The notes beneath the pieces were generated by a model, which saw nothing but the letters and a program-made list of their open reading frames with translations, made no database searches and was not told the origin of the DNA. DNA of 53,260 nucleotides, taken from IMG/VR virus record IMGVR_UViG_3300046163_000036, positions 1 through 53,260 of that record; one strand, given 5' to 3'. Made by a program: the position numbers and the translations under genes. Every line of letters begins with the position of its first letter. Within the stretch, counting starts at the first letter, position 1. Source of the DNA: a virus. This document shows, one piece after another, positions 5,846 through 32,668 of the stretch.

Positions 5846-8800
5846 ATGGACGACGAATTAGTAAAACTTTATGACCTTCTTGTAAGAGAAGGTTACTATA
5901 CTAAAACTTGGGAAGAGTTTGCTTTCAAGTATCTAGAAGAACCGGAATACAAAGAAAAGGTTTTCGATGTTGTTAGCAGAGATGGTTTCTATACCAAGAG
6001 TAAGGAAGAGTTCCTTAATCAGTATAAGTTCCCTGAGCCTACAGTAAAAAAAAAAGACGCCGCTATTCCTTCAGTATCTTTGGATGGCGATTCGACATAT
6101 ACAGAACAACCTGAGGATGCGTTCTTCCCTCAAGATACAGTAGATAGTGAAGCTATAAACGATTACTCACTTGACTTTTCTAAACAGCAAAACATTATTC
6201 GCAGCCAAGAAGACGTAGAAAAGGCATCGAATATATTCAATGAGGAAACCAAGAAGTATAAAGAAGATATAGATTCTTGGACCGCCCGTGCTCAAGAGAT
6301 TAAGGTTGAATACAACGATAAATTTGGAGGCCTCACAGAAGAGCAGATCAACATCAATCCATCTCTTAAGTTAGAATACGACGAATTCAAAGAGAGGGAT
6401 ATAGCACTACAGCAAGAATATGCAGATCTTGTTGAGAGAGAGAAGTACTTCAAGGAACAAGGTACCCGTCTAGATAAGATGGTGGGTGATTTCGTTGACG
6501 TGCAGTCTCAGAAAGGTAACTGGGCTGGAGGTATCTGGAACAGCGTTTTATCAGGCGTGGGTTCTATTTCTGCAGGTCAGATGAGTATGATCACAGACTT
6601 TATGGTAGAATACTTCCCAACACCAGCGATGGGAGAGAAGGGCTATAGAGAAACATTTATAAGCGCTGCAGAGCAGTTAGGATATTCAGACCTTCTTCCT
6701 GAAGGTTATGAAGATATGACTGTAGCTGAGATTAAGGAGCAAATGAAATACAGTGTTCCAGAGGAGCCTGCAGAAACAACTGAAGATTTCGGAGCGGAGT
6801 TTGGTCCAGTTAGCTTTCAGCAATATGGTACTCGCTCAGCTGGGAAAACCCTTGGACAGATTATAGATGAGAAGGCTAAAGACAACGCTAAGAAAGGCGT
6901 AAAGTTTGGGGAGGGGTACTTCAGAAACCCATATTCATTTGTAGCTGCAAATACAGATCCAGAGATGGGTATTGTAGACGCTACACGTGAAGGTGCTCGT
7001 GAGCTGTTTGGAGACAAGGGAACCACAGAGCAGTGGCGTGATATGCAGAAGGAAGGCTTCTGGGGCGGTGCTATTCTTGGACTTGCTGAATCATTACCTG
7101 CTATGGCTGGTGGTGCTGGTCCTATGGGTTGGGCTCAGCGTACTGCAAATATGTATGCCCTAACAACAGATCAGTTGAACCAAGAGATGGAGAGCAATCC
7201 AGAGTTTGACGATATATCTGAAAGTGAAAAGTACTACATTACAGCTCCAGTTGGTGTAACTGTCGCTGTGCTAGAAACATATGGTTTTAGAAACATCATA
7301 AACCAGAAGGGTCTACTCAATGGCTTAGTAGCGAGAGCTCTAGGCAGATCTACAAACTCAACGTCAGCTAAGGCATTTTCTCAGTTTATTAGAGAGGATG
7401 TTGAGAATATGATGGCTCGTGGTATCCTTACTGTGGGTGCCGGTGGTCTTGCAGAATTTGAAACAGGTGCAGCGCAACAGGCTGCTGAAATCAGCATAAA
7501 GGAAATATACAATATCTCCAAGGATAAGGATATGTTCCAGACCCCTAACACTTGGATTGAATTTGCTGGTGAGGTTTTAAAGGGCGGTGCTCAAGAAGCT
7601 GTAGGTGGTTTTGTGCTATCTACTCCGGGAGCTGTGGTCAATGCAGTGAATAACAAGGAGATGAGCTTAATAGACGATGATGCGTTTAATATGCTTAAGG
7701 ATATGTCTACCGACTCTGAGTTTACCACTATGTATGGTCAAAGCCTAAGACAAAAAGTCTCTGCTGGTGAGATGACGGAAGCTGAGGCTAAGCAAAATTT
7801 TGATGAGTTTAACAGAATCATTGGCGTAACCACACAGATCCCAACCGACTTAAACACTGCCGATCAAAAGAAAGCTCTTGAGCTACTTGTCGAAAAGCAA
7901 ACCCTTGACGAACAGATACAAGGCAAAGATAAAAACCTTGTAAAGGATAAGACCGACAGGATAAAAGAAATAGATGCTGAGCTAGTTAATATGGCTGAGC
8001 GAAGAAATGCTACATATCTTCGTGATGGTAAGTTCCTCAGTAGAGAACAATTTATAGAACAGCTAGAGGCAGCCACTCCTGAAGAGATTACCCAAGGCTC
8101 TTGGGAAGCTACAAATGATTCAGAGGTAACAGATCTATTAGCTGATAAGTTTTCTGTAGTAGAACAGGAAGCTCCTGTAGAAGAAGCTGTTGCTGAAGAG
8201 CCTGTAGTCGAGGAGCCGATGGTTGCAGAACCTACGGTTGAAGAAGTGGTAGTAGAAGAGGCTCCAATAGCTGAAGCTCCTGCGGAGTTCTCAGCGGAAG
8301 ACCAAGCCGATATATCAGATATCAATACAGAAATACGTGAGTTGTCTAGACAGTTCGGTGTAGCCGAAACTGTCGAAGAAAAGCAAGAGGCTAGATCCAA
8401 ACTTGTAGATGCCAGAAGCAGAAAGACAGCGATCGAAAGTAAATACTTAGAAGATGTTAGTCAAGAAGAAGCAGGGGTACCAAGTCCTGTCGAAGAAGGG
8501 CAAGCCGTTGTCGAAGGCGAACCTATCGAAGAAGCAGGCGTTGAAGAGGTTGCGGCAGATAGAGATGTTCAAGCACCTGAAGAAGTAACAGCTGAAGAAG
8601 CTGTTACAGAAGAAGTACCAGTAGAAGAAGCAGTAGTAGAAGAAGCTGTTGCAGAAGATCCTACTACAGGGCGAAGAATATTCCCTGAAGAGGAAATGAC
8701 CTACGCCACAGAAGAAGAGGCAATGGCAGCAGTGGAAGCCCTTCAGGAAAGATTGTCTGTGGAGGATCCAAGCCTACTTGTATTATCTACCGAAACAACT

Positions 8801-11800
8801 GGTAGAAGAGGCAAGAAAACATATGGTGTTGAAGTAATGGTTGATCAGGCTGCAGTGGAAGAAGCAGCTGTCGCTGAAGAACCAAGCGCTGATAGACAAC
8901 AGCTAGAAACTGCTTCTGTGGATGCTATCAATCTTAGTGATAAGGCACCACAGATGATTGAGAGTTTCAATAGTGCGTTATCGTCTATTGGTGCTGCTCC
9001 TGTAAATGTATATGTAGTTAGCGATGCTGATATGCAGAACGTTACAGGGTCTTCGTCAAGAGCTCAATTCAGAACACTTGAGGATGGCACATCTGCTGTA
9101 GTAGTAAATGCAGACAAAGCTAGCCTAGGCAGCTTGTCTCACGAGATGATGCACGCTTATGTTAAAGCTGTTGATCTAAACTCAAAACAGATTGTGCGAT
9201 TCACTAATGAGGTGAGATTACAATTGAGTAAAGGTACCAAGGTAGAGAAAGCGTTAGCCAATAAGCTAACAGCTTTCCAAAAAGAATACCTCAACAGAGA
9301 GGTGTACGGCAAGGGTCTAACTCTTGAGGATGCAGTGATTGCCGAGGAGTTCTTAGCTGAGTTTGTTGCAGAGGTCAAGGACGGCATTGATGTACAGAAG
9401 ATGTCTCTGTCAACTATTGAGCGAATCAGAAAAGCTGTTGTTAGAATACTTAACGATGTACTAGGACTCAAGATAGACGACACAGCTATTAAGTCTAAGG
9501 AGGAAGCGTTTGACTTTGTCAATGGATTCTTAGATGCACTTGAAGGACGTACCGAGCTAACAGTTGAGATAAACCCAGAGGCAGCAGCTGTTGTGAACAG
9601 CAAGAATCCTTATGAGGCTTCTAGGTTACAGTTAGACGTTCCGGTAGGTTCTAGAATAGCCAATGAACCACTCAAGGATGCACGCACTATAGCTATCGCT
9701 TATATGGAGTCTAAGGGGCTCAAACACACAGATGGTAATCTGATTAGAAAGATTGACAAAAAGCTCGCAAAAAGGATCTCTGACGCCTATACAGCGATGA
9801 AGAACAACCCTACCAGTCCAGAGGTTGCTGCTGCATATAAGGCTATGGCTGATGAAACTATAGAGCAGTACGAGGCTATTATTAAGGGTGGATACAAAGT
9901 AGAGGTAAATAATAACGAGCCGTACAACAACAGTAATGAGTTGATCGAAGATCTTCGCAAGAACAAGAATATGCGAATCTTCAGTACAGACTCAGGGTTC
10001 GGTGATGCAGGCATCACAGCTGATCAAAGAAAAGACAACCCGCTTCTAGCAGAGACAAAATACAAAGATGTAAATGGTCGAACACTATTATTAAATGATG
10101 TCTTTAGATTTGTACACGACTTCTTTGGACACGCAGAGAGAGGTAACGGTTTCGGTCCTATCGGAGAGGAGAACGCCTGGGATGTACACTCTAGAATGTA
10201 CAGCCCACTAGCACGTAAAGCATTGACAGCTGAGACTAGAGGTCAGAACAGCTATGTAAACTTCTCTGGAGTTAACGACGAAGCATTTAAACTCAGAGAC
10301 AAAGGTAGAGCCCTTCGTAAGGAAGGGAAGCTTGAAGAGGCACAGGAGTTTACAGACAAGGCTTACGCTACAATGAAATTTGCCCCTCAGAAAGTAGGCT
10401 TGTTGCCTGATGAGTTTGTTGCAAACCCATACCTACAAGAGAAGGAAATTCAGATTGAAGAGCAGGGCGAATCTGGAGAGGTAGGCACTATTTCCATACC
10501 TAAAGAACAGATAGAGGTCATCGACGCTCCTAAAGCGTCTGATGACGCTAGAGGATTCGTCAACAAGTTTGTTACTGACATAGACATCAATGAGCTAGAA
10601 GGTAGAAACTTCGTTACCAATATGTATGATTATACTAGTGCGGGTACAACCGAACTAGGTAATGGTATTTCTATTGAGCTGTTGGGTGGTAGAAACTATG
10701 TGCCCCTAATGCTTGAGCGCAATGGTAAAGAACTCGGCGAGGTTTCCAACCTAGCTGCGTTCAACTCTAAGTCACAGGCAGAAGGGTTTATCAGAAACGC
10801 CAAAGAAGGTAATGCTGATCTGTTTGCCCCACACTCAGGAACCTTGACAGATTCTTGGCAGTTCCAGCACCATATCTTTGAGGAGCTGGTAAAGGCAGTG
10901 CTTGATAACAAGATTATGAGCAAAGCTAGATTGATGGAAGTGTTCAACGAAGCCATCAAGTCTAAAGAAGGTTCCAAAGCATTCAAGGCGTTCAACGAAA
11001 AGAATAACTCTAGACTTAAAAATCTAAACTCGTTTAAGAAGAACCCTATGAAACTAGTGGAGCTTCTTGACGCTGAGAACAACTATTCTCCTAACTTACG
11101 TAAAGCTCTTAACCAGAAGATCGCTGCGAGTAAAGAATTCCAAAATGCTATCGGTATTAAGAACTTGAATCAGTTCTACAATCTTATTGCAGACCCTCTT
11201 AATCAAGGTGTTGAAGGTGGTGAGATTATGAGCTTTGTAGAGTTTGATCCTAATACCTTTGAGGTATCTAAGACTAAGCCGGGAGATCCAGATCACCACC
11301 CATCATTCGGATGGACTGTTAAAGCTGTAATCAAAAGTATCTTACAGCCAAACAAATACTACAAGTCTTATGACCTGACTAACGAGTACACTAAGTACAA
11401 TATGTCTGGTCCAGAGGTATCCACTAAAGCCGATCCTAAATTTGCTGTATCTAATGTTACGTCAAGTGCTGGAGCTATTCCAAAGGTAGCTAAGGTTGAA
11501 CCTATGGAGCTTCAGGAGTACAAGAACTCTAAGGGGGAAACGGTACGATTCCAGATTGAAGACCAAGTAAAACAAGAAGAGAACGCTAAGGAAACATACT
11601 CTGCCATTGAGGACAATAAAGAAGGTGTGTTTAGATCTCAGATAGACAATAAGGTGGATCAAGATGTTGCCGCCTCAGATACTTGGAAGTCAAGAGAAAG
11701 AAATGCTTTTGAGCGTTTCGTAGATCTTACTAGACGTAGAATACAAGACAGCTACAGAGACATCATTGTCATCCAAGAAGATATTGAGTACGCTACAGGT

Positions 11801-14572
11801 AAGCCTGTTGGTCTAGACCAAGACTTCCGTAATGCGGAAGTATTGATGCACGGTAAAGCTAAGAGCGAGCTAGACAAAACAGAAGACAGAATAAAAGACA
11901 TCACTAGCAAGATCAAGAAGTCTGGTCTGTCAGTAGACGATGTTAACGAGTTGCTGTATGCTATGCACGCTCAGGAGCGAAACAGATATCTTCGCACTAT
12001 CTCTACAGATATTGGCAAGAACTTATCTAGAATGAGAAAGACAAGCGGTATGACACCGACAGATGTCGCTCAGCTACTAGGCATCTCTAAAGAACAGTAC
12101 CTAGAGATTGAAGCCAACAAGAGAGATCTGAAGTCGTCTGACTTGACTGACCTTCTATTGATCTATGGATCAACACCTTACAGATTCTTCTATGACAATG
12201 CGTTAGTGAAGGATGGTTCTGGTATGACTGATGTAGAAGCTAGAAAGATATTGGCTAAGTACGATCTCAATCTAACATCTCCAGATGTGTCTCAGCTGTC
12301 TCCGAAGATTCGCACAGCAGTAACAGCTATCAGAGAGTTGATAGCAGATACTAGAAATAGATTGGTTGAGTCTGGTCTAGAATCTCAGGGCACTATAGAT
12401 GCATTTAACGCTACGTATAAAAACTACGTACCGCTTAGAGGTTTCGCAGATGAGCAGTTCGGCTCAGAGTTTATTGAAGGCGGTGGCAAACTAGAGGTAC
12501 GTGCCAGAGAGAGAAGAGCTAAGGGACGTCAAAGAAAAGCAGACTCTCCTTTGACTCAGGCTATCATCTCTAACACCACTACAATTATTAGAGGTGCTAA
12601 GAACGACGTTATGAAAAGGTTCTATGAACTCGCTAAGAACAACCCGAACAAAGATATTTACGAAATTGTAGATCCAGAAACGTCTAAAGATTATAAGACC
12701 TCAATGCGTGATGGTAAGGTGATAGCAGTTGCTAAATCTGTTTCCGATTATCTTCTTGACGAGAGTATGGTATCTGTCCGTATTGATGGTGACTACAAGT
12801 TTGTCAGATTTAAGGATGCTGATCTAGCTAATGTTCTTAGAGGAGCTAATGTAGTTAAGGCTGAATGGTTCACTAAATATATAGGTGGGTTCAACAGAAT
12901 GCTTAGTAGCTTGATTACCACATACGATCCTGATTTCGTATTCCGTAACTTCTCTAGAGATATTCAGACAGCTGTATTGAACTTGTATGCTGAACAGGAT
13001 CTAGACGATGGACTTATAAAAGATAAGAACATTGTAGGCAAGACAGTTAAAGATGTGTACCCTGCACTTAAAACTATATTCGCTGTTGAGGGTGGATGGA
13101 CTGGCAAGAAGGAAGCCTCCAGAAACAAGGATATGGATCAGTACTACAAGGAGTTCTTGGAGGACGGCGCTAAGACTGAATGGTTCTATAGTAAGCCTGC
13201 AGATCAAATAAACAAGGACATTGAGAAGTTGATAAGAGGTAAAGGAGATAATGCAATCAAAGCTGCAGCTAACTTAGTTGAGCGTGTAAACTCTTCTGTA
13301 GAGAATGCAGTTCGTTTATCAGCATATGTCAATGCTCGGAAGGCTGGCACCCCTAGAGCCAAAGCCGCCGAGCTCGGAAAGAACTTGACAGTTAACTTTA
13401 ACAAAACTGGTTCATTAGGACAGATGGGTAACACCCTATATCTGTTCTTCAATGCCTCTGTTCAGGGTAGCTCTAGATTGTTACGTAGCTTAAAGCCTGC
13501 ATACAAAATAGACAGCGAGGGGAATAGAAAGTATCACCTTACCAGAGCGCAGAAGATGGCTGTAGGTTTGTTTGTTATGGGCGGTGTTATGTCGGTATTC
13601 AATGAATGGATGAGCGATGAAGATGAGGATGAAGAATCTTTCTTCTCTAAGATACCGGAATTCGAAAAAGAAAGAAACATAATCATTATGAAGCCTAACG
13701 GCAAGGACTATTGGAAGATACCTTTGCCATATGGGTCGAACGTATTCTATGTAGCAGGTTCTTACATATCTGAAGGATTGAATGGAACTAAGACTCCGGG
13801 AGAAGTAGCATCGGCAATAGGGCAGACTGCGATAGGTTCTTTCTCCCCGATTAACTTTCCTACCAGTAAAGATGCTTCTTCATTCTTTATTAAATTTATT
13901 TTGCCTACTGCTACTCAGATCCCAGTGGCTATAGGTCTTAACGAAGATTATTTTGGACAGAAGATATATAACGAGAATTTCATATACGACCCTGCACCAA
14001 AGCCGGAGTCTCAATTAGGAAAAGAAAGTGGTTACAGATGGACACAGTCAATCGCTAAATGGTTGAACGAAGTTACTGGAGGGTCTGCGTATAGATCAGG
14101 ATACATAGATGTAAATCCAGATAAGGCTGATTTTGTAGTTGAAACTATTACTGGTGGTGCGGGTAAGTTTGTGACAAGATCTGCAAATGTTATAGATAAG
14201 ATTTTGACTGGTAACTGGGACGAGCTAGAATCTAGACAGATTCCTTTTGTACGTACCTTCAACGGACAGCCATACGAGTATTCAAATATAAACAGCTTCT
14301 ATGAAAGAACTGTTGATGTTAACCAAAAGTTCAAGGAAGTAAAGGCAGGCATAATCGAAGGGGCAGATGCCAAGAAGATATATAAAATGCATAAGATGGG
14401 TAAGGATTACAAATCTCGTTTGAAAAAAATTAGTAAGCTTGAGGACGAGGCGGCAGGCATCAAGGATCCACTAAAGCAAGAAGCTAGACTGGACCAGCTT
14501 GAAAAGGCTAGATACAAATTGGTTGCCGATTTCAACAAGCAATACATACAGCTAAAGATTGAAGATATATAA
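5846..14572 (+). CDS. Giant polyvalent virion protein (2,908 aa) with metallopeptidase motif
   Basis: Largest gene in the window. Residues 1-65 hold two copies of a repeat (LYDLLVREGYYTKTWEEF, then VFDVVSRDGFYTKSKEEF). A hydrophobic Gly/Ala-rich zone spans about 405-500, and a Glu/Val/Ala low-complexity region about 770-950. Residues near 1098 carry SHEMMH, an HExxH zinc-metallopeptidase signature. Around 1420-1465 a conserved phage module has VHDFFGHAERG and TETRGQNSYVNF. Around 2060 is a helix-turn-helix-like segment (TPTDVAQLLGISKEQYLEIE). From about 2360, DPDFVFRNFSRD and LYLFFNASVQG resemble the large polyvalent protein-associated domains, followed by a hydrophobic segment near 2570. Such proteins are thought to be injected with the DNA and act early in infection; that role is inferred here. 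Confidence 0.8.
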   Translation: MDDELVKLYDLLVREGYYTKTWEEFAFKYLEEPEYKEKVFDVVSRDGFYTKSKEEFLNQYKFPEPTVKKKDAAIPSVSLDGDSTYTEQPEDAFFPQDTVDSEAINDYSLDFSKQQNIIRSQEDVEKASNIFNEETKKYKEDIDSWTARAQEIKVEYNDKFGGLTEEQININPSLKLEYDEFKERDIALQQEYADLVEREKYFKEQGTRLDKMVGDFVDVQSQKGNWAGGIWNSVLSGVGSISAGQMSMITDFMVEYFPTPAMGEKGYRETFISAAEQLGYSDLLPEGYEDMTVAEIKEQMKYSVPEEPAETTEDFGAEFGPVSFQQYGTRSAGKTLGQIIDEKAKDNAKKGVKFGEGYFRNPYSFVAANTDPEMGIVDATREGARELFGDKGTTEQWRDMQKEGFWGGAILGLAESLPAMAGGAGPMGWAQRTANMYALTTDQLNQEMESNPEFDDISESEKYYITAPVGVTVAVLETYGFRNIINQKGLLNGLVARALGRSTNSTSAKAFSQFIREDVENMMARGILTVGAGGLAEFETGAAQQAAEISIKEIYNISKDKDMFQTPNTWIEFAGEVLKGGAQEAVGGFVLSTPGAVVNAVNNKEMSLIDDDAFNMLKDMSTDSEFTTMYGQSLRQKVSAGEMTEAEAKQNFDEFNRIIGVTTQIPTDLNTADQKKALELLVEKQTLDEQIQGKDKNLVKDKTDRIKEIDAELVNMAERRNATYLRDGKFLSREQFIEQLEAATPEEITQGSWEATNDSEVTDLLADKFSVVEQEAPVEEAVAEEPVVEEPMVAEPTVEEVVVEEAPIAEAPAEFSAEDQADISDINTEIRELSRQFGVAETVEEKQEARSKLVDARSRKTAIESKYLEDVSQEEAGVPSPVEEGQAVVEGEPIEEAGVEEVAADRDVQAPEEVTAEEAVTEEVPVEEAVVEEAVAEDPTTGRRIFPEEEMTYATEEEAMAAVEALQERLSVEDPSLLVLSTETTGRRGKKTYGVEVMVDQAAVEEAAVAEEPSADRQQLETASVDAINLSDKAPQMIESFNSALSSIGAAPVNVYVVSDADMQNVTGSSSRAQFRTLEDGTSAVVVNADKASLGSLSHEMMHAYVKAVDLNSKQIVRFTNEVRLQLSKGTKVEKALANKLTAFQKEYLNREVYGKGLTLEDAVIAEEFLAEFVAEVKDGIDVQKMSLSTIERIRKAVVRILNDVLGLKIDDTAIKSKEEAFDFVNGFLDALEGRTELTVEINPEAAAVVNSKNPYEASRLQLDVPVGSRIANEPLKDARTIAIAYMESKGLKHTDGNLIRKIDKKLAKRISDAYTAMKNNPTSPEVAAAYKAMADETIEQYEAIIKGGYKVEVNNNEPYNNSNELIEDLRKNKNMRIFSTDSGFGDAGITADQRKDNPLLAETKYKDVNGRTLLLNDVFRFVHDFFGHAERGNGFGPIGEENAWDVHSRMYSPLARKALTAETRGQNSYVNFSGVNDEAFKLRDKGRALRKEGKLEEAQEFTDKAYATMKFAPQKVGLLPDEFVANPYLQEKEIQIEEQGESGEVGTISIPKEQIEVIDAPKASDDARGFVNKFVTDIDINELEGRNFVTNMYDYTSAGTTELGNGISIELLGGRNYVPLMLERNGKELGEVSNLAAFNSKSQAEGFIRNAKEGNADLFAPHSGTLTDSWQFQHHIFEELVKAVLDNKIMSKARLMEVFNEAIKSKEGSKAFKAFNEKNNSRLKNLNSFKKNPMKLVELLDAENNYSPNLRKALNQKIAASKEFQNAIGIKNLNQFYNLIADPLNQGVEGGEIMSFVEFDPNTFEVSKTKPGDPDHHPSFGWTVKAVIKSILQPNKYYKSYDLTNEYTKYNMSGPEVSTKADPKFAVSNVTSSAGAIPKVAKVEPMELQEYKNSKGETVRFQIEDQVKQEENAKETYSAIEDNKEGVFRSQIDNKVDQDVAASDTWKSRERNAFERFVDLTRRRIQDSYRDIIVIQEDIEYATGKPVGLDQDFRNAEVLMHGKAKSELDKTEDRIKDITSKIKKSGLSVDDVNELLYAMHAQERNRYLRTISTDIGKNLSRMRKTSGMTPTDVAQLLGISKEQYLEIEANKRDLKSSDLTDLLLIYGSTPYRFFYDNALVKDGSGMTDVEARKILAKYDLNLTSPDVSQLSPKIRTAVTAIRELIADTRNRLVESGLESQGTIDAFNATYKNYVPLRGFADEQFGSEFIEGGGKLEVRARERRAKGRQRKADSPLTQAIISNTTTIIRGAKNDVMKRFYELAKNNPNKDIYEIVDPETSKDYKTSMRDGKVIAVAKSVSDYLLDESMVSVRIDGDYKFVRFKDADLANVLRGANVVKAEWFTKYIGGFNRMLSSLITTYDPDFVFRNFSRDIQTAVLNLYAEQDLDDGLIKDKNIVGKTVKDVYPALKTIFAVEGGWTGKKEASRNKDMDQYYKEFLEDGAKTEWFYSKPADQINKDIEKLIRGKGDNAIKAAANLVERVNSSVENAVRLSAYVNARKAGTPRAKAAELGKNLTVNFNKTGSLGQMGNTLYLFFNASVQGSSRLLRSLKPAYKIDSEGNRKYHLTRAQKMAVGLFVMGGVMSVFNEWMSDEDEDEESFFSKIPEFEKERNIIIMKPNGKDYWKIPLPYGSNVFYVAGSYISEGLNGTKTPGEVASAIGQTAIGSFSPINFPTSKDASSFFIKFILPTATQIPVAIGLNEDYFGQKIYNENFIYDPAPKPESQLGKESGYRWTQSIAKWLNEVTGGSAYRSGYIDVNPDKADFVVETITGGAGKFVTRSANVIDKILTGNWDELESRQIPFVRTFNGQPYEYSNINSFYERTVDVNQKFKEVKAGIIEGADAKKIYKMHKMGKDYKSRLKKISKLEDEAAGIKDPLKQEARLDQLEKARYKLVADFNKQYIQLKIEDI

Positions 14573-27180: not shown

Positions 27181-27213
27181 TTAAGTTATCAGTAACCAGA
27201 GGGCAATGCCCTC
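27181..27213 (-). promoter_or_regulatory. Hairpin plus 17-mer, putative ribozyme cleavage site 1
   Basis: Minus strand: hairpin GAGGGC-ATT-GCCCTC, one U, then GGTTACTGATAACTTAA. Predicted cut between 27194 and 27193. The last of 14 sites in transcription order; it separates the small-gene array from the replication genes. Confidence 0.85.
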
Positions 27214-27222
27214 CTTAATTTT

Positions 27223-27690
27223 CTACCAAGAAGCTTGGTAAGAAAGGTCAGTTCTAACGCTATTCCAACTTTTCATCTCCCGAATCAAGGCACTTGTTAT
27301 ATTCCAAGTGTCTAACACTGATTCAAAGTAGTACTCGTCGTACTCTACGCCCCCAAAGAAGAAACCACTAGCTGTAGGTAACAGCTCTTCAGCTAAAGAA
27401 TTGTCATCCAAGACCTTCTTACAAGCTTTGTTAAGCGACTTAACGTGCTCTTCGGTGAGGTAGTATTCACCGCAGTCATCTTCGCCATTCTGAACGTTCT
27501 CAACAAACCAATTGTGTATGTGGTTTGCCTTTCTCCAATAGGCTATTTGCTCGGTAATCTCCGATACTCTAGCGCCTACGATGTGTTTTGATTCAGCACC
27601 CTTTACGGACACGTGATTTCTTTCGGACTCTTTCATATGGTCCCAATTACGCACAAATGTTTTCTTGTGCAAGTACATATCTAATCCCAT
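27223..27690 (-). CDS. Conserved phage protein MGLDMYL family (155 aa)
   Basis: Begins MGLDMYLHKKTFV and contains IAYWRKANHIHNWFVENVQ followed by GEDDCGEYYL. I recognise this as a widespread family of small proteins in phages and some bacteria; its biochemical function is not known to me. The conserved His, Cys and Trp residues suggest a binding or catalytic site. Confidence 0.75.
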   Translation of the reverse strand: MGLDMYLHKKTFVRNWDHMKESERNHVSVKGAESKHIVGARVSEITEQIAYWRKANHIHNWFVENVQNGEDDCGEYYLTEEHVKSLNKACKKVLDDNSLAEELLPTASGFFFGGVEYDEYYFESVLDTWNITSALIREMKSWNSVRTDLSYQASW

Positions 27691-27702
27691 AAGATTATAA
27701 AT

Positions 27703-27736
27703 TTAAGTTATCAGTAACCGCCCCTCAGCGAGGGGC
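27703..27736 (-). promoter_or_regulatory. Hairpin plus 17-mer, putative cleavage site 2
   Basis: Hairpin of GCCCCTC / GAGGGGC with a 3-nt loop abuts the 17-mer directly. Predicted cut between 27716 and 27715. The MGLDMYL gene starts 12 nt after the 17-mer. Confidence 0.85.
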
Positions 27737-27748
27737 TTTGTTTAGTTT

Positions 27749-28045
27749 TTACTCCTTAGTCACAAGGTTGCACATCTCGAATACATTGTATGGATGGTTA
27801 TGCTTTTTGCTGAGAATCCTACCATACTTAATCACCTTGCCAAATACATAGGTTCGTTTCCCAACTTTATCTTTGGGTATTGATTTAAAATACTCCACAT
27901 ACCCATCAAAGATGTATTCATCTCGCTGTGTTCCTTTTAACGATGTCTTTGCTACATCACCATATAGGTTGATTCTTGCCTGGTCAAAGAAAGGCTTAAC
28001 CTCTCTTTCAATCTCATAAAAAATGGTCATTGTGTCTTTTGTCAT
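27749..28045 (-). CDS. Small protein (98 aa), unknown
   Basis: Aromatic-rich (FDGYVEYFKSIPKDKVGKRT) and basic in the centre. Its ATG lies 11 nt after the 17-mer of site 3, and a hairpin lies 13 nt past its stop. No family recognised. Confidence 0.65.
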   Translation of the reverse strand: MTKDTMTIFYEIEREVKPFFDQARINLYGDVAKTSLKGTQRDEYIFDGYVEYFKSIPKDKVGKRTYVFGKVIKYGRILSKKHNHPYNVFEMCNLVTKE

Positions 28046-28056
28046 AAAACATTAAT

Positions 28057-28090
28057 TTAAGTTATCAGTAACCGCTAGACTTAGCCTAGC
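28057..28090 (-). promoter_or_regulatory. Hairpin plus 17-mer, putative cleavage site 3
   Basis: Hairpin GCTAG / CTAGC, which contains the stop codon of the upstream gene, then the 17-mer. Predicted cut between 28070 and 28069. Confidence 0.85.
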
Positions 28091-28434
28091 TTGATGATGT
28101 CGGTCTGGCGTAGGAATTCCGTGCGGTATCCGTCGCTGAATTTAACCTCCATAAATCCGTTCGGACTCTTATCGATTAAGTGCCCCATACGACCAGTGTT
28201 ACGGCACATTACCTTGGGCATAGTGCGTTCGGCTTTCACCGGGATAACGATTCTAGCCTCAGGTACTTTGCTGTAGGTTTCGTAGAGGGCATCACCCTCT
28301 ACGCCAAGCTCCTTTCTAGCCTTGTTGATGGCTTCACGTTGAGCCTGACCTCGTTTGTACTTGCTGGGGTCATCGCTGTACTGGTAGGTCCAGTCGTGCG
28401 CTTGTAACAGCTGTATAAAATCTACTTTGTTCAT
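28081..28434 (-). CDS. Conserved phage protein with DWTYQYSDD motif (117 aa)
   Basis: LLQAHDWTYQYSDDPSKYKRG is a motif I associate with unknown phage proteins (D-W-x-Y-x-x-S-D-D). The C-terminal half (MGHLIDKSPNGFMEVKFSDG) is beta-rich. Its start is one nucleotide after the stop of the preceding gene, and it is the only gene in the array without its own 17-mer, so it should share a transcript with the 53-aa gene. Confidence 0.65.
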   Translation of the reverse strand: MNKVDFIQLLQAHDWTYQYSDDPSKYKRGQAQREAINKARKELGVEGDALYETYSKVPEARIVIPVKAERTMPKVMCRNTGRMGHLIDKSPNGFMEVKFSDGYRTEFLRQTDIIKLG

Positions 28435-28435
28435 A

Positions 28436-28597
28436 TCAAAATTCTGTTTGTAACAATCCAGAAAGGATTAGTTGGTTATTAATTGATGGTTGCTTCTTGT
28501 CCTTCTTCAGGAGCTCAACAACACGTTTGTTCTCTAGCGCCACAAACGCAGATACCTCAGCGTTGGCGCAGATAGATGCAAAATCATTCGCAGTCAT
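28436..28597 (-). CDS. Small helical protein (53 aa), unknown
   Basis: Start at ATG 28597 (MTANDFASICANAEVSAFVA). The frame stays open upstream, but that extension would merely translate the conserved 17-mer (as VTDNL), and the 11-nt spacing to the 17-mer supports this ATG. Followed directly by the 117-aa gene. Confidence 0.6.
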   Translation of the reverse strand: MTANDFASICANAEVSAFVALENKRVVELLKKDKKQPSINNQLILSGLLQTEF

Positions 28598-28608
28598 AAT
28601 ACATTTGT

Positions 28609-28642
28609 TTAAGTTATCAGTAACCATCCCTCAACGAGGGAT
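28609..28642 (-). promoter_or_regulatory. Hairpin plus 17-mer, putative cleavage site 4
   Basis: Hairpin ATCCCTC / GAGGGAT, 3-nt loop, containing the upstream gene's TGA stop; then the 17-mer. Predicted cut between 28622 and 28621. A T-run after the hairpin on the plus strand reflects Lys codons on the minus strand. Confidence 0.85.
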
Positions 28643-28897
28643 TTTTTTAGCACTAGCCTCAACAGCCTCTGCAAGTTCATCAAATGTGATGTTGCGAGAT
28701 TCTGCCTCTTCACGTGTTTTGAAGTACACTTTGTTTGGGTCTTCATCGTGCATCTCTTCGCTCACGAAGTCCCAAGTGCTCTCTACCACTGTGAAGATTT
28801 GTGGGTTCTCTCCATTGCTGTTTAACAGCTGAAGCTCTTCGAAGGTTATTCCTTCTAGGGTGAAGTAAGTATCACCCTCTTTGAATGGGTAGTCCAT
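28631..28897 (-). CDS. Small acidic protein (88 aa), unknown
   Basis: Start at ATG 28897 (MDYPFKEGDTYFTLEGITFE), 11 nt after the 17-mer of site 5. Acidic, with TWDFVSEEMHDEDPN and a helical end. The TGA lies within the hairpin of site 4. Confidence 0.65.
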   Translation of the reverse strand: MDYPFKEGDTYFTLEGITFEELQLLNSNGENPQIFTVVESTWDFVSEEMHDEDPNKVYFKTREEAESRNITFDELAEAVEASAKKIPR

Positions 28898-28908
28898 AAT
28901 ACGTTTAA

Positions 28909-28942
28909 TTAAGTTATCAGTAACCAAGGGGCAACAGCCCCT
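28909..28942 (-). promoter_or_regulatory. Hairpin plus 17-mer, putative cleavage site 5
   Basis: Hairpin AGGGGC / GCCCCT with a 4-nt loop, one U, then the 17-mer. Predicted cut between 28922 and 28921. Confidence 0.85.
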
Positions 28943-28948
28943 CTTAGA

Positions 28949-29317
28949 CTACTCGTAGTGGTTATTCAAGTCGTACAACAAGTACGTAGTAACACACGTT
29001 GAGTCGGCATTAATTAGTGAGAGTTCGAATGGCTCACCTTCTTCATTATTGCCCTCTTTGAAGTCCACTACACTCAAGTAATCGAATGATTGAGTCACCA
29101 CCAATTTGTTGTCCTGACCTACAGCCTCCATAAGGAAGATGCTGTCGTTGGTCATTTTGATATCGGTGCGGACAAAATCTCTAGTAGATGAGTAGACCTC
29201 GATAGGTCCTTCGTTCGGCTTAGTTACCACGCTGGTAACCTCGTATAAATCTCCGTAGACATTTGGAGCGCAAGACCCAAAGGTCAGCGCTACAATAACA
29301 GCTAATAAAGTTTTCAT
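28949..29317 (-). CDS. Early-region lipoprotein (122 aa)
   Basis: From ATG 29317: MKTLLAVIVALTFGSCAPNV, a signal peptide with lipobox F-G-S-C, so Cys16 should be lipidated and the protein displayed on a membrane. The mature part is beta-rich (LYEVTSVVTKPNEGPIEVYS). Phage lipoproteins expressed early are often superinfection-exclusion factors; that role is an inference. The 17-mer lies 10 nt upstream of this ATG. Confidence 0.75.
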   Translation of the reverse strand: MKTLLAVIVALTFGSCAPNVYGDLYEVTSVVTKPNEGPIEVYSSTRDFVRTDIKMTNDSIFLMEAVGQDNKLVVTQSFDYLSVVDFKEGNNEEGEPFELSLINADSTCVTTYLLYDLNNHYE

Positions 29318-29327
29318 AGTCATCAAT

Positions 29328-29360
29328 TTAAGTTATCAGTAACCGCCACCCGAAGGTGGC
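29328..29360 (-). promoter_or_regulatory. Hairpin plus 17-mer, putative cleavage site 6
   Basis: Hairpin GCCACC-TTCG-GGTGGC (stable UUCG loop) abuts the 17-mer. Predicted cut between 29341 and 29340. Confidence 0.85.
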
Positions 29361-29365
29361 TTTTG

Positions 29366-29587
29366 CTATTCGTACACCACTTGAAATCTGGTTGGCGTTG
29401 CACGTTCAATCAGGTGCTTGATGTAGTCTCTAAATCGTGGTGAATCATCACAATCGAAAGGCGATACAATGACCTTGCAATCATCGATGTTGGCATCGAT
29501 TTCGTAGTAGTAGGTGTCCTCGTAATTATCTCCTGAGATAATGTACGTTATGGTATTTCCTAGTTGGTAGTACATTGCGTAAAGCAT
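29366..29587 (-). CDS. Small acidic protein (73 aa), unknown
   Basis: Tyr/Asp-rich (YIISGDNYEDTYYYEIDANI) and beta-prone, ending RATPTRFQVVYE. ATG is 12 nt after the 17-mer of site 7. No family recognised. Confidence 0.65.
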   Translation of the reverse strand: MLYAMYYQLGNTITYIISGDNYEDTYYYEIDANIDDCKVIVSPFDCDDSPRFRDYIKHLIERATPTRFQVVYE

Positions 29588-29599
29588 AGTTCAATAAAA

Positions 29600-29633
29600 T
29601 TAAGTTATCAGTAACCGAGAGGCTTAGCCTCTC
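29600..29633 (-). promoter_or_regulatory. Hairpin plus 17-mer, putative cleavage site 7
   Basis: Hairpin GAGAGGC-TAA-GCCTCTC followed directly by the 17-mer. Predicted cut between 29613 and 29612. Confidence 0.85.
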
Positions 29634-29637
29634 TTAA

Positions 29638-29937
29638 TCACAAGTAGTCATTGCATATCTTATCGTGTGCAAGGTTCTCAATGTAGTCATCCGAGAAACC
29701 TTCCTTGGTTTCTCTTTCCCAAAATCCTCTACGCTCTCTCGCAGTAGACTTTAGAAACTTTTGAATCAGCTCGGACTCAAAAATATCTCCAGCAACAGAT
29801 ACGATACAGTCGCAAGACTCGATATTGTCGTAAGGCATTTCTTTATGTTCTCGGTCTACCCTTATACGCTCCCAAGTTCTAGCTGTGTGTATCAATACAT
29901 CGTTAAAGACCATAGTCTCATTAGCATTAATCATCAT
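29638..29937 (-). CDS. Small protein (99 aa), unknown
   Basis: Start at ATG 29937 (MMINANETMVFNDVLIHTAR), 11 nt after the 17-mer of site 8. Charged, with KSTARERRGFWERETKEGF in the C-terminal half. No domain recognised. Confidence 0.65.
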   Translation of the reverse strand: MMINANETMVFNDVLIHTARTWERIRVDREHKEMPYDNIESCDCIVSVAGDIFESELIQKFLKSTARERRGFWERETKEGFSDDYIENLAHDKICNDYL

Positions 29938-29948
29938 AATACATTTGT

Positions 29949-29981
29949 TTAAGTTATCAGTAACCCCCTCCATCAGGAGGG
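29949..29981 (-). promoter_or_regulatory. Hairpin plus 17-mer, putative cleavage site 8
   Basis: Hairpin CCCTCC-TGAT-GGAGGG followed by the 17-mer. Predicted cut between 29962 and 29961. Confidence 0.85.
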
Positions 29982-29988
29982 TTGCTCA

Positions 29989-30183
29989 TTAAAAATCGAT
30001 GAGCTTGTCCAAATCAATAAAGGAGTTCCCACTCACCTCTTCAGCACATTCAAAGTGTCTCACAATCTCAATCTCTACTTGGTAGAATTTGTTGGTTTCG
30101 GGATCTTGGTACACCTCGAATTCAACGCCATCTCCATCTACGTATTCTAGGCGTTCGATGATTTCGTTTGTTAGCTTTTCCAT
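29989..30183 (-). CDS. Small acidic protein (64 aa), unknown
   Basis: Acidic and beta-rich (LEYVDGDGVEFEVYQDPETN). ATG 11 nt after the 17-mer of site 9. No family recognised. Confidence 0.65.
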   Translation of the reverse strand: MEKLTNEIIERLEYVDGDGVEFEVYQDPETNKFYQVEIEIVRHFECAEEVSGNSFIDLDKLIDF

Positions 30184-30194
30184 TGTAAAAGGTT

Positions 30195-30228
30195 TTAAGT
30201 TATCAGTAACCGAAGGGCGTTGCCCTTC
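30195..30228 (-). promoter_or_regulatory. Hairpin plus 17-mer, putative cleavage site 9
   Basis: Hairpin GAAGGGC-AAC-GCCCTTC followed directly by the 17-mer. Predicted cut between 30208 and 30207. Confidence 0.85.
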
Positions 30229-30238
30229 TTGAATCTTG

Positions 30239-30487
30239 TTATTTTACCCTAACAATTACAGAGTACCAAGATGCATCTCTGCTAGTTAGAAAGGGCATAG
30301 ATTGACCTACACTCAATCTCATTACTCTATCAAAGTAGTTATCTTGTAAAGAGTAAATAAATTCAAAGTCCTCACCCTCTTCTTTACCTGAATTGAATAT
30401 CCGATTTGCAGACATTTCTTCAATCCTCGTTGAAGTGTATTCAGCAAGTAAGATGTGAAATTTAATTTCTTCGAAATGATTTTTCAT
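30239..30487 (-). CDS. Small protein (82 aa), unknown
   Basis: Start at ATG 30487 (MKNHFEEIKFHILLAEYTST); the frame is open upstream but only through the 17-mer. Helical N-terminus, then LRMLSVGQSMPF-like beta segment and a basic end (VIVRVK). No family recognised. Confidence 0.6.
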   Translation of the reverse strand: MKNHFEEIKFHILLAEYTSTRIEEMSANRIFNSGKEEGEDFEFIYSLQDNYFDRVMRLSVGQSMPFLTSRDASWYSVIVRVK

Positions 30488-30498
30488 AAAGCATTTAA

Positions 30499-30532
30499 TT
30501 AAGTTATCAGTGACCGAGGTGCATTGCACCTC
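30499..30532 (-). promoter_or_regulatory. Hairpin plus 17-mer (C variant), putative cleavage site 10
   Basis: Hairpin GAGGTGC-AAT-GCACCTC followed by GGTCACTGATAACTTAA. The T-to-C change is exactly at the position preceding the predicted cut (30512/30511) and gives the triplet GUC. Confidence 0.85.
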
Positions 30533-30537
30533 TTAGT

Positions 30538-30783
30538 TTATAGGATGATTTCGTTGTCCTCCCATCTTAGTTCGTATCCCTTGATTTTTCCCTCTAGGTA
30601 AGCTACGGCTGTATCTAGATTCATATAGGCTGTAGACCATCCACAGCTATGAGATTCTACTACCCATTCGCCTTCTGCGATACGGCACAATTCTTTTGTG
30701 GATTTAAGTATACCATTGCTGAATGTGATTTCTTGGTAGATACCAATCTCCATTGACAGCAATTGCTCTTTTACGTTGTCCAT
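30538..30783 (-). CDS. Small protein (81 aa), unknown
   Basis: Mixed alpha/beta (EITFSNGILKSTKELCRIAE, then EGEWVVESHSCGWSTAYMNL). Two cysteines and conserved-looking W-S-T-A-Y. ATG 11 nt after the 17-mer of site 11. Confidence 0.65.
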   Translation of the reverse strand: MDNVKEQLLSMEIGIYQEITFSNGILKSTKELCRIAEGEWVVESHSCGWSTAYMNLDTAVAYLEGKIKGYELRWEDNEIIL

Positions 30784-30794
30784 AATTCGTTTGT

Positions 30795-30827
30795 TTAAGT
30801 TATCAGTAACCGCCTCCCGAAGGAGGC
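30795..30827 (-). promoter_or_regulatory. Hairpin plus 17-mer, putative cleavage site 11
   Basis: Hairpin GCCTCC-TTCG-GGAGGC with a UUCG loop, directly followed by the 17-mer. Predicted cut between 30808 and 30807. Confidence 0.85.
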
Positions 30828-30834
30828 TTAATCG

Positions 30835-31032
30835 TTATTCCGATTTAGTTGTCAGTACTATGGTTTCTAGTACGCTGTTTGTCTCTTGGTCGTATAAATC
30901 TTCGAACAAGAAATTAACATCTTCGATATCGGAATCAAAATCAAATCGGTAGTAAACATCAATGTTCTCTAGTGCTACACCATTAGACTTTGCTAGATGA
31001 GTGAGTTGCTCAATTAATTCTTTTGCGTTCAT
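30835..31032 (-). CDS. Small acidic protein (65 aa), unknown
   Basis: Helical N-terminus MNAKELIEQLTHLAKSN and acidic centre (YYRFDFDSDIEDVNFLFEDL). ATG 12 nt after the 17-mer of site 12. No family recognised. Confidence 0.65.
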   Translation of the reverse strand: MNAKELIEQLTHLAKSNGVALENIDVYYRFDFDSDIEDVNFLFEDLYDQETNSVLETIVLTTKSE

Positions 31033-31044
31033 AAGGCAATAGTT

Positions 31045-31077
31045 TTAAGTTATCAGTAACCGCCCCCCATCGGGGGC
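31045..31077 (-). promoter_or_regulatory. Hairpin plus 17-mer, putative cleavage site 12
   Basis: Hairpin GCCCCC-GATG-GGGGGC directly followed by the 17-mer. Predicted cut between 31058 and 31057. Confidence 0.85.
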
Positions 31078-31086
31078 TTGGGTCAA

Positions 31087-31257
31087 TCAAGAAAGTCCCT
31101 CAAGGGCTTTCTGTGCTTTCTTCAGGTACTTGTGGGTAGCCTGAGCAGATTGAAAGTGTGCGTAGCTTTCGCCCAATCCAATAAGGGTATCGAGGTCTCT
31201 GCGGATGCAATCGAGTAATTCGTTAGCTTGTTTCGGGGTGATTTGTTGCGTTGTCAT
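31087..31257 (-). CDS. Small helical protein (56 aa), unknown
   Basis: MTTQQITPKQANELLDCIRR begins a mostly helical chain ending KKAQKALEGLS. The ATG at 31257 is 12 nt after the 17-mer of site 13 and the stop is 9 nt before the hairpin of site 12, so the cassette spacing itself supports this short gene. Confidence 0.65.
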   Translation of the reverse strand: MTTQQITPKQANELLDCIRRDLDTLIGLGESYAHFQSAQATHKYLKKAQKALEGLS

Positions 31258-31269
31258 AAAGCAATCAAT

Positions 31270-31303
31270 TTAAGTTATCAGTGACCGAAGGGCAGTGCCC
31301 TTC
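31270..31303 (-). promoter_or_regulatory. Hairpin plus 17-mer (C variant), putative cleavage site 13
   Basis: Hairpin GAAGGGC-ACT-GCCCTTC followed by GGTCACTGATAACTTAA, the second site with GUC before the predicted cut (31283/31282). Confidence 0.85.
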
Positions 31304-31314
31304 TTTAATCTATC

Positions 31315-31497
31315 CTAATCTGTCAGATGCATCACGCATCGAATCAGAGTATTTGCCGTGTTGTAATCACAAGCTGAGTAATCTACAATATCACCGCTCA
31401 AGTCGGTGGTTATCTCAATGTCGAAATCGAAGGTAAATACCTTTCCGATTATATCACCTCGGAATACGAATGGCTTGACATCTAGTGGATTCTTCAT
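31315..31497 (-). CDS. Small acidic protein (60 aa), first gene of the leftward operon
   Basis: Beta-rich (VFTFDFDIEITTDLSGDIVD). ATG 12 nt after the 17-mer of site 14, which separates it from the ribozyme-like leader. No family recognised. Confidence 0.6.
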   Translation of the reverse strand: MKNPLDVKPFVFRGDIIGKVFTFDFDIEITTDLSGDIVDYSACDYNTANTLIRCVMHLTD

Positions 31498-31509
31498 AAG
31501 ACATATAGT

Positions 31510-31550
31510 TTAAGTTATCAGTAACCAACGGAAGCACCGAAGCGCTTCCG
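31510..31550 (-). promoter_or_regulatory. Hairpin plus 17-mer, putative cleavage site 14 (leader-proximal)
   Basis: Hairpin CGGAAGC / GCTTCCG with an 8-nt loop, two U residues, then the 17-mer. Predicted cut between 31523 and 31522. It is the only site within about 150 nt of the ribozyme-like core, so it could be cut in cis. Confidence 0.85.
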
Positions 31551-31580
31551 CTGTTATTAGTTGATATGCTCCCCATATCC

Positions 31581-31665
31581 CGTGGTTTCGCCCCATCTCA
31601 GGGGTCGAGTGCCGAAGCACTCAGGGTAGTAGATTGCTACCCCTCATCAGACTGATTATAACTTA
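31581..31665 (-). ncRNA. Hammerhead-ribozyme-like element, putative trans-acting
   Basis: Minus-strand RNA reads UAAGUUAUAAUCAGU (31665-31651), then CUGAUGA (31650-31644), G10.1 (31643), three hairpins, C11.1 (31590), GAA (31589-31587) and ACCACG. In hammerhead numbering the CUGANGA and GAA core blocks, the G10.1-C11.1 pair and A15.1 are all present. The arms fit the repeated 17-mer: ACC with GGU forms stem III (A15.1-U16.1), and the 15-nt arm pairs ACUGAU and AACUUA of the target as stem I with a 3-nt bulge, leaving U or C17 unpaired for cleavage. In place of an ordinary stem II loop are hairpins at 31624-31642, 31607-31622 (UUCG loop) and 31591-31604. Activity is inferred. Confidence 0.75.
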
Positions 31666-31777
31666 GTATCCAATAAGTAAAGAACGTCACTAGACCTAAC
31701 TAGTCGGATTCAGCGTTACGGCGCTTTGTCCCTTTCAACAATACAATGGTACGACAGCTATTTGGATTGCACAAGGG

Positions 31778-31786
31778 TTATACACA
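31778..31786 (+). promoter_or_regulatory. DnaA-box-like sequence TTATACACA
   Basis: Matches the TTATNCACA consensus. One or two such matches are expected by chance in a sequence this long, so on its own it is weak. It gains interest because it lies in the divergent non-coding region of a phage that encodes two DnaA-domain-IV proteins. Confidence 0.35.
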
Positions 31787-32668
31787 CTTTTTTTCACAAT
31801 TGAGTATAAATACCTAGGCATCTAAATCTTGCCATAGTATGACCTATGCGCACGTGAGGGACTGCCCCAACCTTGGTATCCATCAGCCCTGAGAAACGGC
31901 AGGAGCGTGGATGTGTGAGCGTGTGAGAGTGTGTTGGGTTGAGGTGTATGGTGGGGTGGGGATTGTTCCGCCTATGGACAGAACACCATCGGCAACTAGT
32001 CTGTTCTCCCTGATCAGCTAGCCGTCTGTAAACCAGATAGTTACATAGCTATAGCTGAACCAGTACTGTAGATAGCAAACGCTAAAAGTTTTGACAATCA
32101 ATGCTTTATCTGTAGGGGGTGGGGTTTGCGATTTCACTTCGGATTGCGTGCGCCAACGTTCTATACTATATATAATCCCCCACCTAAACATTACTCATCC
32201 CTTTTTTAAGGGTGTATATGAGCTGTTTAGAGCGCTTTTGAATGGACATAAAGCTGTTAAGTAGGATCAAGCCAGTCGGGGGAGGTTTTCGTGCAGGAGA
32301 AAGGAGGATACTGGCAGGAGCAAACAGCTATTAAAAGCTGTGCGAACTGACAGGATCTGGGGGTGTTTACTGTAGGGATAGTTCTTGCCGCTCTCACAAA
32401 GTAGCTGAGCGGGTCTCTGCTTGGGGCGACGACCCTACAGCTACAGGGTGAGTAATTAGATAAAGCAAGAAGGATTCAAGAGGAAAGAATCCTGATTGCG
32501 TGAGGAATCTAGAGCGAAGTTACAACTTTTTTCGGAGAAAGTCAAATTAATATTTACTGGGGTTACAGAAGGTTTAGCTCAAACTAAACCTTCCATTCCT
32601 TCTAGTTTAGGCAAGCCTAACAATATAACAGCTAAATATACCTCTCTCTATATATGTGTTCAATTCTG

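Follow-up and report, generated by a model that had tools for sequence, protein, structure and literature searches.

The locus described here raises the question of whether one hammerhead ribozyme, encoded once at the head of a phage gene array, could serve cut sites placed before almost every gene of that array. The whole stretch of DNA analyzed, called the window below, is a 53,260-base virus record. The terminase and the portal encoded in it have PHROG family matches, and one protein of 1185 aa exceeds the Pfam cut-offs for the crAss muzzle models. Among named phage records, the nearest terminase is that of a Caudoviricetes genome from a spring (47%), the next nearest are those of Flavobacterium phages (42%), and Cellulophaga phages follow lower down; we regard the window phage as related to the crAss-like group. 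Elsewhere in the window, positions 5846-14572 encode a 2908-aa protein with matches to LPD38, HTH-like domains and unknown PHROG families, and a long stretch without clear genes, 31900-32650, lies between divergent gene blocks; no Rfam match was obtained in 31650-32660 at E-values up to 1.

A first-pass annotation made from sequence alone had claimed that the minus strand carries the two core blocks of a hammerhead ribozyme, with arms complementary, in the hammerhead register, to a repeated 17-mer. This is confirmed. The minus strand reads CUGAUGAG...CGAAACC from 31650 to 31584, and no protein-coding ORF of at least 50 aa and no tRNA is listed over the core. The elements of the ribozyme are as follows, with counts referring to the window and the related contigs of family A, introduced below.

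31660..31665, minus strand: outer 5' arm UAAGUU, complementary to AACUUA in the sites; a 3-nt bulge (AUA) occupies 31657-31659
31651..31656, minus strand: inner 5' arm AUCAGU, ribozyme strand of hammerhead stem I, pairs with ACUGAU
31644..31650, minus strand: core block CUGAUGA (C3-A9), invariant in 9/9
31624..31642, minus strand: hairpin hp1, GGGUAG/CUACCC with a 7-nt loop; 6/6 pairs in all members, 5/6 with two-sided changes
31607..31622, minus strand: hairpin hp2, GAGUGC-UUCG-GCACUC; four different stem sequences, all complementary
31591..31604, minus strand: hairpin P3, CCCC-UGAGAU-GGGG; becomes CUCC/GGAG in L004
31584..31590, minus strand: core block C11.1-GAA-A15.1 plus CC (3' arm ACC, stem III), invariant in 9/9
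31563..31579, minus strand: hairpin P4, GAUAUG-GGGAG-CAUAUC; 4 pairs with two-sided changes

AUCAGU before the core faces ACUGAU after the cut, and ACC after GAA faces GGU before it, with H17 left unpaired; the claimed stem III (GGU/ACC), stem I (ACUGAU/AUCAGU), outer pairing (AACUUA/UAAGUU) and single unpaired base all held. The bulge between the outer and inner pairing sits on the ribozyme side. The outer arm is present in the window, L001, L012, L018 and L020 and absent from L005, L010, L004 and L041. At the nearest site, the inner 5' arm is paired in 8/8 distinct sequences (one G-U), and both the 6-bp stem I and the 3-bp stem III form in 8/8 distinct rows of the alignment. The GGUU at the 3' end of the core itself is a potential competitor for the ACC arm.

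The 17-mer, GGTYACTGATAACTTAA, is present in 14 copies on the minus strand, from 31526 to 27181, with none on the other strand. A search allowing up to 3 mismatches returns the same number of matches, 12 of them exact and the other 2 carrying T->C at position 4 (H17); 100 shuffles gave a mean of 0.28 matches and at most 2. Every site has a GC-rich hairpin on its 5' side, directly adjoining or within 2 nt, and an ATG on its 3' side; by the rule of our script, which allows G-U pairs, a hairpin ends at or beside the site in 14/14. These hairpins had gone unmentioned in the first-pass annotation and are added here.

31529..31550, minus strand: hairpin 5' of the cis site, separated from it by 2 nt or extending to it through A-U/G-U pairs
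31510..31526, minus strand: cis site GGUU^ACUGAUAACUUAA, predicted cut between 31523 and 31522
31270..31286, minus strand: distant site 1 (GGUC^ACUGAU), hairpin immediately 5'
31045..31061, minus strand: distant site 2, 17-mer match
30795..30811, minus strand: distant site 3, 17-mer match
30499..30515, minus strand: distant site 4 (GGUC), 17-mer match
30195..30211, minus strand: distant site 5, 17-mer match
29949..29965, minus strand: distant site 6, 17-mer match
29600..29616, minus strand: distant site 7, 17-mer match
29328..29344, minus strand: distant site 8, 17-mer match
28909..28925, minus strand: distant site 9, 17-mer match
28609..28625, minus strand: distant site 10, 17-mer match
28057..28073, minus strand: distant site 11, 17-mer match
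27703..27719, minus strand: distant site 12, stem III missing from the cofold minimum
27181..27197, minus strand: distant site 13, the array's last, 17-mer match

The nearest site lies 59 nt past the core and forms with it a cis, type-I-like hammerhead, the hairpin before it closing via A-U and G-U pairs. The claimed count of 14, before almost every gene, therefore held, but only 13 sites are distant, because the first is the ribozyme's own cis site. The layout is that of a single hammerhead core at the head of a gene array: CTGANGA and GAAA can be combined in 40 ways in the window, the arms fit in only one combination, and the 13 distant sites have no core of their own. That one match is entirely Watson-Crick. 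In 150 Markov resamples the arms fitted in 2 of 2993 combinations with G-U allowed, or about 0.03 expected for 40, and together with the site shuffles this leads us to reject chance as the origin of the match between core and sites. Two other readings of the sites were also rejected. A local hairpin within the 17-mer, GUUA-CUGA-UAAC, does not account for its conservation, because it is disrupted in the C variants and lacking in family B (by eye); and the hairpins beside the sites do not look like intrinsic terminators, no U run following them (by eye).

Relatives were gathered by means of the site word, terminase neighbors and core patterns, which yielded 13 further uncultivated phage contigs with such a core and matching sites. 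Twelve of them show two or more sites, and the contig of the remaining one, L041, ends after its first. The word search of IMG/VR returned 31 stretches, 10 of which, from seven contigs, have hairpin-adjacent sites; the other 21 have a single match in another context without a hairpin (by eye) and were not counted. The contigs fall into two families. Family A consists of the window and eight contigs (L001/L035, L005, L010/L047, L012/L033, L018, L020, L004 and L041), with arms AUCAGU/ACC and sites GGU-H-ACUGAU; the arm AUCGGU of L020 still pairs through G-U. Family B consists of five contigs (L107, L115, L116, L165 and L166), with arms GGUUAA/ACC and sites GGU-H-UUAACC before ATG. The hammerhead core, C3UGANGA9 and G12AA14 with A15.1, is found in 9/9 members of family A and 5/5 contigs of family B, an invariance that is not independent evidence because the members were found partly via the core blocks.

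The arms and the sites change together, since family B has new arms and correspondingly different sites. Before ATG, the nine contigs with ATCAGT/ACC arms have 62 matching sites; they also have a single stray match to the family B arms, without a hairpin. The five with GGTTAA/ACC arms have 53 matches of the B type before ATG and 0 to the ATCAGT/ACC arms before ATG. A few of the family B matches, located 5' of the ribozyme, seem to be chance hits. These counts are restricted to contigs with a recognized core, and the tally merges G-U matches and the few 5' chance matches. L163, L164 and L167 were left out, here and in the tallies of position 17, of mismatches and of site placement, as second copies of L116, L107 and L115, respectively, L033 represents a contig also present in pieces L012/L014, and L035 represents L001/L027/L031; L115 and L165, with near-identical cores and the same site spacing, were both counted here and in the position-17 tallies. 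The case set beforehand as refuting the ribozyme, a 17-mer that changes without a matching change of the arms, was thus not met. In a terminase tree of five family A and three family B contigs the families form two separate clades, and because the relation of these clades to one another is unresolved, the tree does not distinguish a single origin from two.

When the window and loci of at least 4 kb (162 in total, many contigs being fragments) were searched de novo for repeats that lie beside a hairpin and before an ATG, only these two families were recovered. L008, L017 and L050, flagged by an arm search, were judged to be chance and were not borne out by the de novo search; a single match in a Novosphingobium genome was likewise attributed to chance, with no matching site in the 4 kb examined. 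No such array was present in the 42-50 kb parts of five named phage records (L168-L172) that we searched. On the minus strand of L027, at reverse-complement offsets 319 and 399, two sites lie 80 nt apart with no gene between them (by eye).

If the distant sites are used as substrates, they should carry the footprint of the hammerhead, and they do. Position 17 was tallied only in exact sites that precede an ORF of at least 30 codons; all 103 of them obey the cut-site rule NUH, with 0 G at that position: U 50, C 8 and A 1 in the 59 sites of family A, and C 22, U 17 and A 5 in the 44 of family B. With L020's own arm and G-U allowed, G17 occurs in 1/8 matches before ATG, and that match has no hairpin. 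Variation is almost absent from the nine paired positions but present at position 17, and conservation drops past position 1.6. Unique hairpin-adjacent sites in family A number 51 exact, 0 with one mismatch over the nine paired positions and 8 with two, the last being scattered, one of them with G17, and judged to be chance; family B has 21 exact and 3 with one mismatch. In L005, L010, L004 and L041, from which the outer arm is absent, many sites drift past position 1.6 and the inner nine positions are kept. This footprint is hard to explain otherwise, and we therefore infer that the distant sites are used, and selected, as hammerhead substrates; the inference is from sequence, without cleavage data. 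Contigs and sites share descent, so that the counts are not independent and no P value is given. In 44/59 family A sites, the first ATG of an open frame lies 24-25 nt past the cut.

The structure of the ribozyme RNA departs from that of the standard hammerhead. The G10.1-C11.1 pair and A15.1 noted at the outset held, but the region between the core blocks consists of three hairpins, not a plain stem II. In family A the order is G, hp1, U, hp2, GA, P3, C, with P4 following the ACC arm; G10.1 and C11.1 are invariant, yet they enclose hp1, hp2 and P3 instead of one helix, and only this pair stands where stem II belongs. The three hairpins are fully complementary in 9/9 sequences despite differing stem sequences. 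The P4 loop, GRRAG, is conserved, and the outermost P4 pair is missing in 4/8 distinct rows. Two-sided changes affect 14/32 pairs of the alignment, whose structure includes the cis site (hp1 5, P3 1, P4 4 and outer arm 4, those of the outer arm partly chance). Pairing holds in 93% of alignment cells vs 81% in shuffles, and the covariation score is 0.382 vs 0.161; 0/500 shuffles were as high on pairing, two-sided changes or covariation score, and slid versions of the structure had at most 3 pairs with two-sided changes. A further measure, of additional pair types, was not above shuffles (18 vs 19.5; 465/500 as high). Within family A, stems I and III are constant except for one G-U, so that covariation of the recognition arms rests on the comparison of families A and B. 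In family B (by eye), CUGAUGA is followed by two hairpins and then a longer insert; GGCU/AGCC is a possible stem II, but the two hairpins precede it and the minimum-energy fold differs. Within this insert, a helix CCACG/CGUGG becomes CCACA/UGUGG in L165 and is broken by one mismatch in L115.

In the minimum-energy folds of the window, L005, L020 and L010, CUGAUGA stays single-stranded between stem I and hp1 (the inner helices of L010 differ); those of L004 and four family B members do not show the hammerhead core free. A bulge in stem I (window and L020) and conserved loops of hp1 and P4 exist; a tertiary contact between stems I and II is not shown. Two checks that the first-pass annotation had proposed gave mixed results. 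In a scan with the Rfam hammerhead models no gathering score was reached at the window ribozyme, the best being Hammerhead_3 at 12.3 bits (E 8.8, gathering 48.5), and RAGATH-1 (RF03152) gave no match in 31480-31720 at E-values up to 10. In cofolds of a short ribozyme with the 13 distant sites, stem I (5/6 pairs), the outer arm and stem III were in register in 12/13; with the long self-cleaved product, four sites were tried and two had this register as the minimum, and the pairing energies, -9.5 to -10.6, are unexceptional against 200 random 51-mers (mean -6.0, sd 2.8, best -16.4). Ribozyme activity is not a given, because the literature examined contained no natural hammerhead in which several hairpins take the place of stem II in this way. 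Upstream of the ribozyme, a separate hairpin with the loop UUAGGU (about 31689-31704, minus strand) is conserved in the window, L001, L012, L018, L020 and L004 with differing stem sequences and is absent from L005, L010 and L041 (all by eye).

The genomic surroundings of the array contain other ribozymes. Relatives place Hammerhead_1-like cis ribozymes and pistol ribozymes directly before a similar leader and ATG. Cis hammerheads stand at upstream genes in L020, L010, L004, L041 and L035, joined by pistol ribozymes in L020 and L010, and in these five contigs the order is cis elements, array ribozyme, array sites. The L010 cis hammerhead scores 29.7 bits with Hammerhead_1 (E 9e-6), just below the gathering score of 34. 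L001/L035 has a cis hammerhead on the strand of the core, about 140 nt to its 5' side, and the arm region is therefore probably transcribed through. For most such elements of the array-bearing lineage and its near relatives, the message left by a cut would open with a similar short leader, which often reads ...AACUUAA...GCUUUAUG (by eye). Since AACUUAA is thus part of a leader common to cis-ribozyme genes, the view of the outer word as purely a ribozyme target had to be corrected. Since the leaders after cis elements and array sites are similar, the array looks like a cheaper substitute for cis ribozymes, with 14 sites for one core. Gene order within the array is shuffled between contigs: in 9/14 (A) and 3/9 (B) clusters of downstream genes, at least one member has a 45-nt 5' flank with no 7-mer in common with the first member's.

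Several side observations concern these elements. The pistol ribozymes that score above Rfam gathering (L049:532-596; L020:5072-5136, minus; L010:11167-11231, plus) sit just before early-region genes and are followed by a leader resembling that of the hammerhead sites. Where cassettes are shuffled (window 27181-31526 and relatives), there are several cases in which the hairpin has remained beside the gene upstream, the junction coinciding with the cut-site word. Genes with a cis hammerhead before them also occur in the cultured Flavobacterium phages elemoE and elemoC, between which stem II is changed on both sides, and in Cellulophaga phage phi18:3; the canonical examples in cultured phages are located as follows.

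L169 near 16355, minus strand: canonical cis hammerhead
L172 near 27500, minus strand: canonical cis hammerhead
L171 near 21950, minus strand: canonical cis hammerhead

On the basis of these data, we consider it likely that a single ribozyme processes a polycistronic early transcript into single-gene mRNAs, both the transcript and its cleavage being inferred without biochemical or RNA data. The support within the sequences is clear: a conserved core, covarying helices, a match of arms and sites in two families, a non-G footprint, adjoining hairpins and the array layout. In the proposed scheme, the type-I-like hammerhead RNA at the head of the array would cut its own 3' cis site first and then the 13 later sites, its fixed arms pairing with GGU-H-ACUGAU and cleavage falling after H17. 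Each cut would free a single-gene mRNA whose start codon follows a short leader with a 5'-OH and whose 3' hairpin carries a terminal cyclic phosphate. Such ends, the 3' one protected by the hairpin, may resist host decay, single-gene messages may free each gene from its neighbors, and modular punctuation by cut sites would allow gene order to be shuffled. That the array is one early transcript, that it is cleaved and in what order, and that mRNA stability or translation is affected are all inferences.

Exact sites were located relative to the ribozyme in 11 of the 14 contigs, and all 102 lie 3' of it, within 4.6 kb, a placement that fits both action on the nascent transcript and a diffusing ribozyme. 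Cutting of later sites after the cis cut would be truly trans, because the ribozyme would no longer be joined to them. The bolder reading, a natural multiple-turnover trans-acting hammerhead whose 5' RNA diffuses to the 13 sites and also to other copies of the transcript, remains tentative, and we would lean slightly against it. The initial inference of a trans-acting (or long-range cis) ribozyme that processes an early polycistronic mRNA is thus supported, with cleavage and intermolecular action unproven.

The alternative that survives best, still an unlikely one, is that the ribozyme acts only in cis. The first site would be cut, and the 13 copies would have spread by cassette recombination through a common leader, recombination holding every leader identical to the substrate strand of the ribozyme itself. 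In its favor are the shuffled gene order (flank differences in 9/14 A and 3/9 B clusters), the AACUUAA part of the leader common to cis-ribozyme genes and the Erf-like annealing protein that the window phage encodes. Against it, copying would not yield sharp edges at the nine paired positions around a free, non-G position 17; the cis sites of family B have U17 in 5/5, yet C17 occurs in 22/44 B sites; and without the outer arm, sites drift past position 1.6 but retain the inner nine positions. We consider it less probable still that the sites are targets of a protein (a processing endonuclease or a translation factor) or promoters or operators, the complementarity to the core being incidental. 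A hairpin and a conserved 17-mer before each start codon would be a plausible target, and the virion RNA polymerase of phage N4 uses hairpin promoters. This reading leaves unexplained the agreement of arms and sites in two families, the lack of G17 and the presence of cis ribozymes at the equivalent place in relatives. Hairpin promoters for a virion RNA polymerase are in particular a weak reading; no phage RNA polymerase was recognized by motif, because the sole six-frame match to DFDxD/DxDGD falls in a 65-aa ORF, a weak test. Finally, the ribozyme RNA might be a non-cutting antisense regulator of translation, as 9-15 bp of pairing just before start codons could suggest, a very improbable role that gives no reason for the invariant CUGAUGA and GAAA blocks or for the exclusion of G at an unpaired position.

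Should the processing model be correct, it would provide a one-enzyme, many-substrate route from a phage polycistron to single-gene mRNAs, used in two lineages with different recognition words. One hammerhead serving 14 sites would show that nature reached the split format of engineers, and the array would supply a genetically readable recognition code, with two words so far. If the ribozyme also proved to act in trans with multiple turnover, it would be the second natural trans-acting RNA-cutting ribozyme after RNase P. The question why phages place ribozymes between genes would become open to direct testing, by a cheap assay on a short pair of RNAs. In open-licence PMC papers, which leave subscription papers and most preprints uncovered, we found no earlier report of a natural trans-acting or one-to-many hammerhead, in keeping with the claim that no equivalent had been described, and none of hammerheads in crAss-like phages. 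We see the novelty of the system in its one-to-many layout; the catalyst alone would be a variant hammerhead.

Most natural hammerheads self-cleave (PMC6412130), and Perreault et al. (2011, PMC3088659) proposed that clustered cis hammerheads may divide the transcripts of phages into single-gene mRNAs. The type I and clustered prophage cis hammerheads of that study are like the window ribozyme in core blocks, register and site rule. They differ in that the prophage elements have their own core at each cut site, whereas the window has one core for 14 sites, 13 of them without a nearby core, and in that several hairpins replace stem II in the window. The pseudoknot hammerhead RAGATH-1 (RF03152; PMC11300833) also combines a hammerhead core with a non-standard element at the place of stem II, but it has no match at the window ribozyme, and the cis hammerheads of relatives match it weakly (elemoE 27.8 and L010 23.3 bits, threshold 56.3). 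The pistol ribozyme (RF02679), which in three relatives precedes a similar leader and ATG, belongs to a different class and acts in cis, and none reaches gathering in the window. In the discontinuous hammerhead of mammalian Clec2 mRNAs (PMC6155905), ribozyme and substrate parts likewise lie far apart in one mRNA; unlike the window array, it has only one cut site, and a very large helix I makes the connection. RNase P has been called the sole trans-acting ribozyme in nature (PMC13254310). It would be comparable in its logic, with one natural ribozyme cutting many RNAs, but its RNA and chemistry are unrelated, and it recognizes tRNA shape rather than complementarity to arms. The trans hammerheads treated in the relevant parts of a review are artificial (PMC6155905). 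These engineered trans-cleaving hammerheads (PMC6155905, PMC6412130) likewise have two fixed arms, a separate substrate strand and the same site rule, but they are man-made, whereas the enzyme and substrate array of the window co-occur in genomes.
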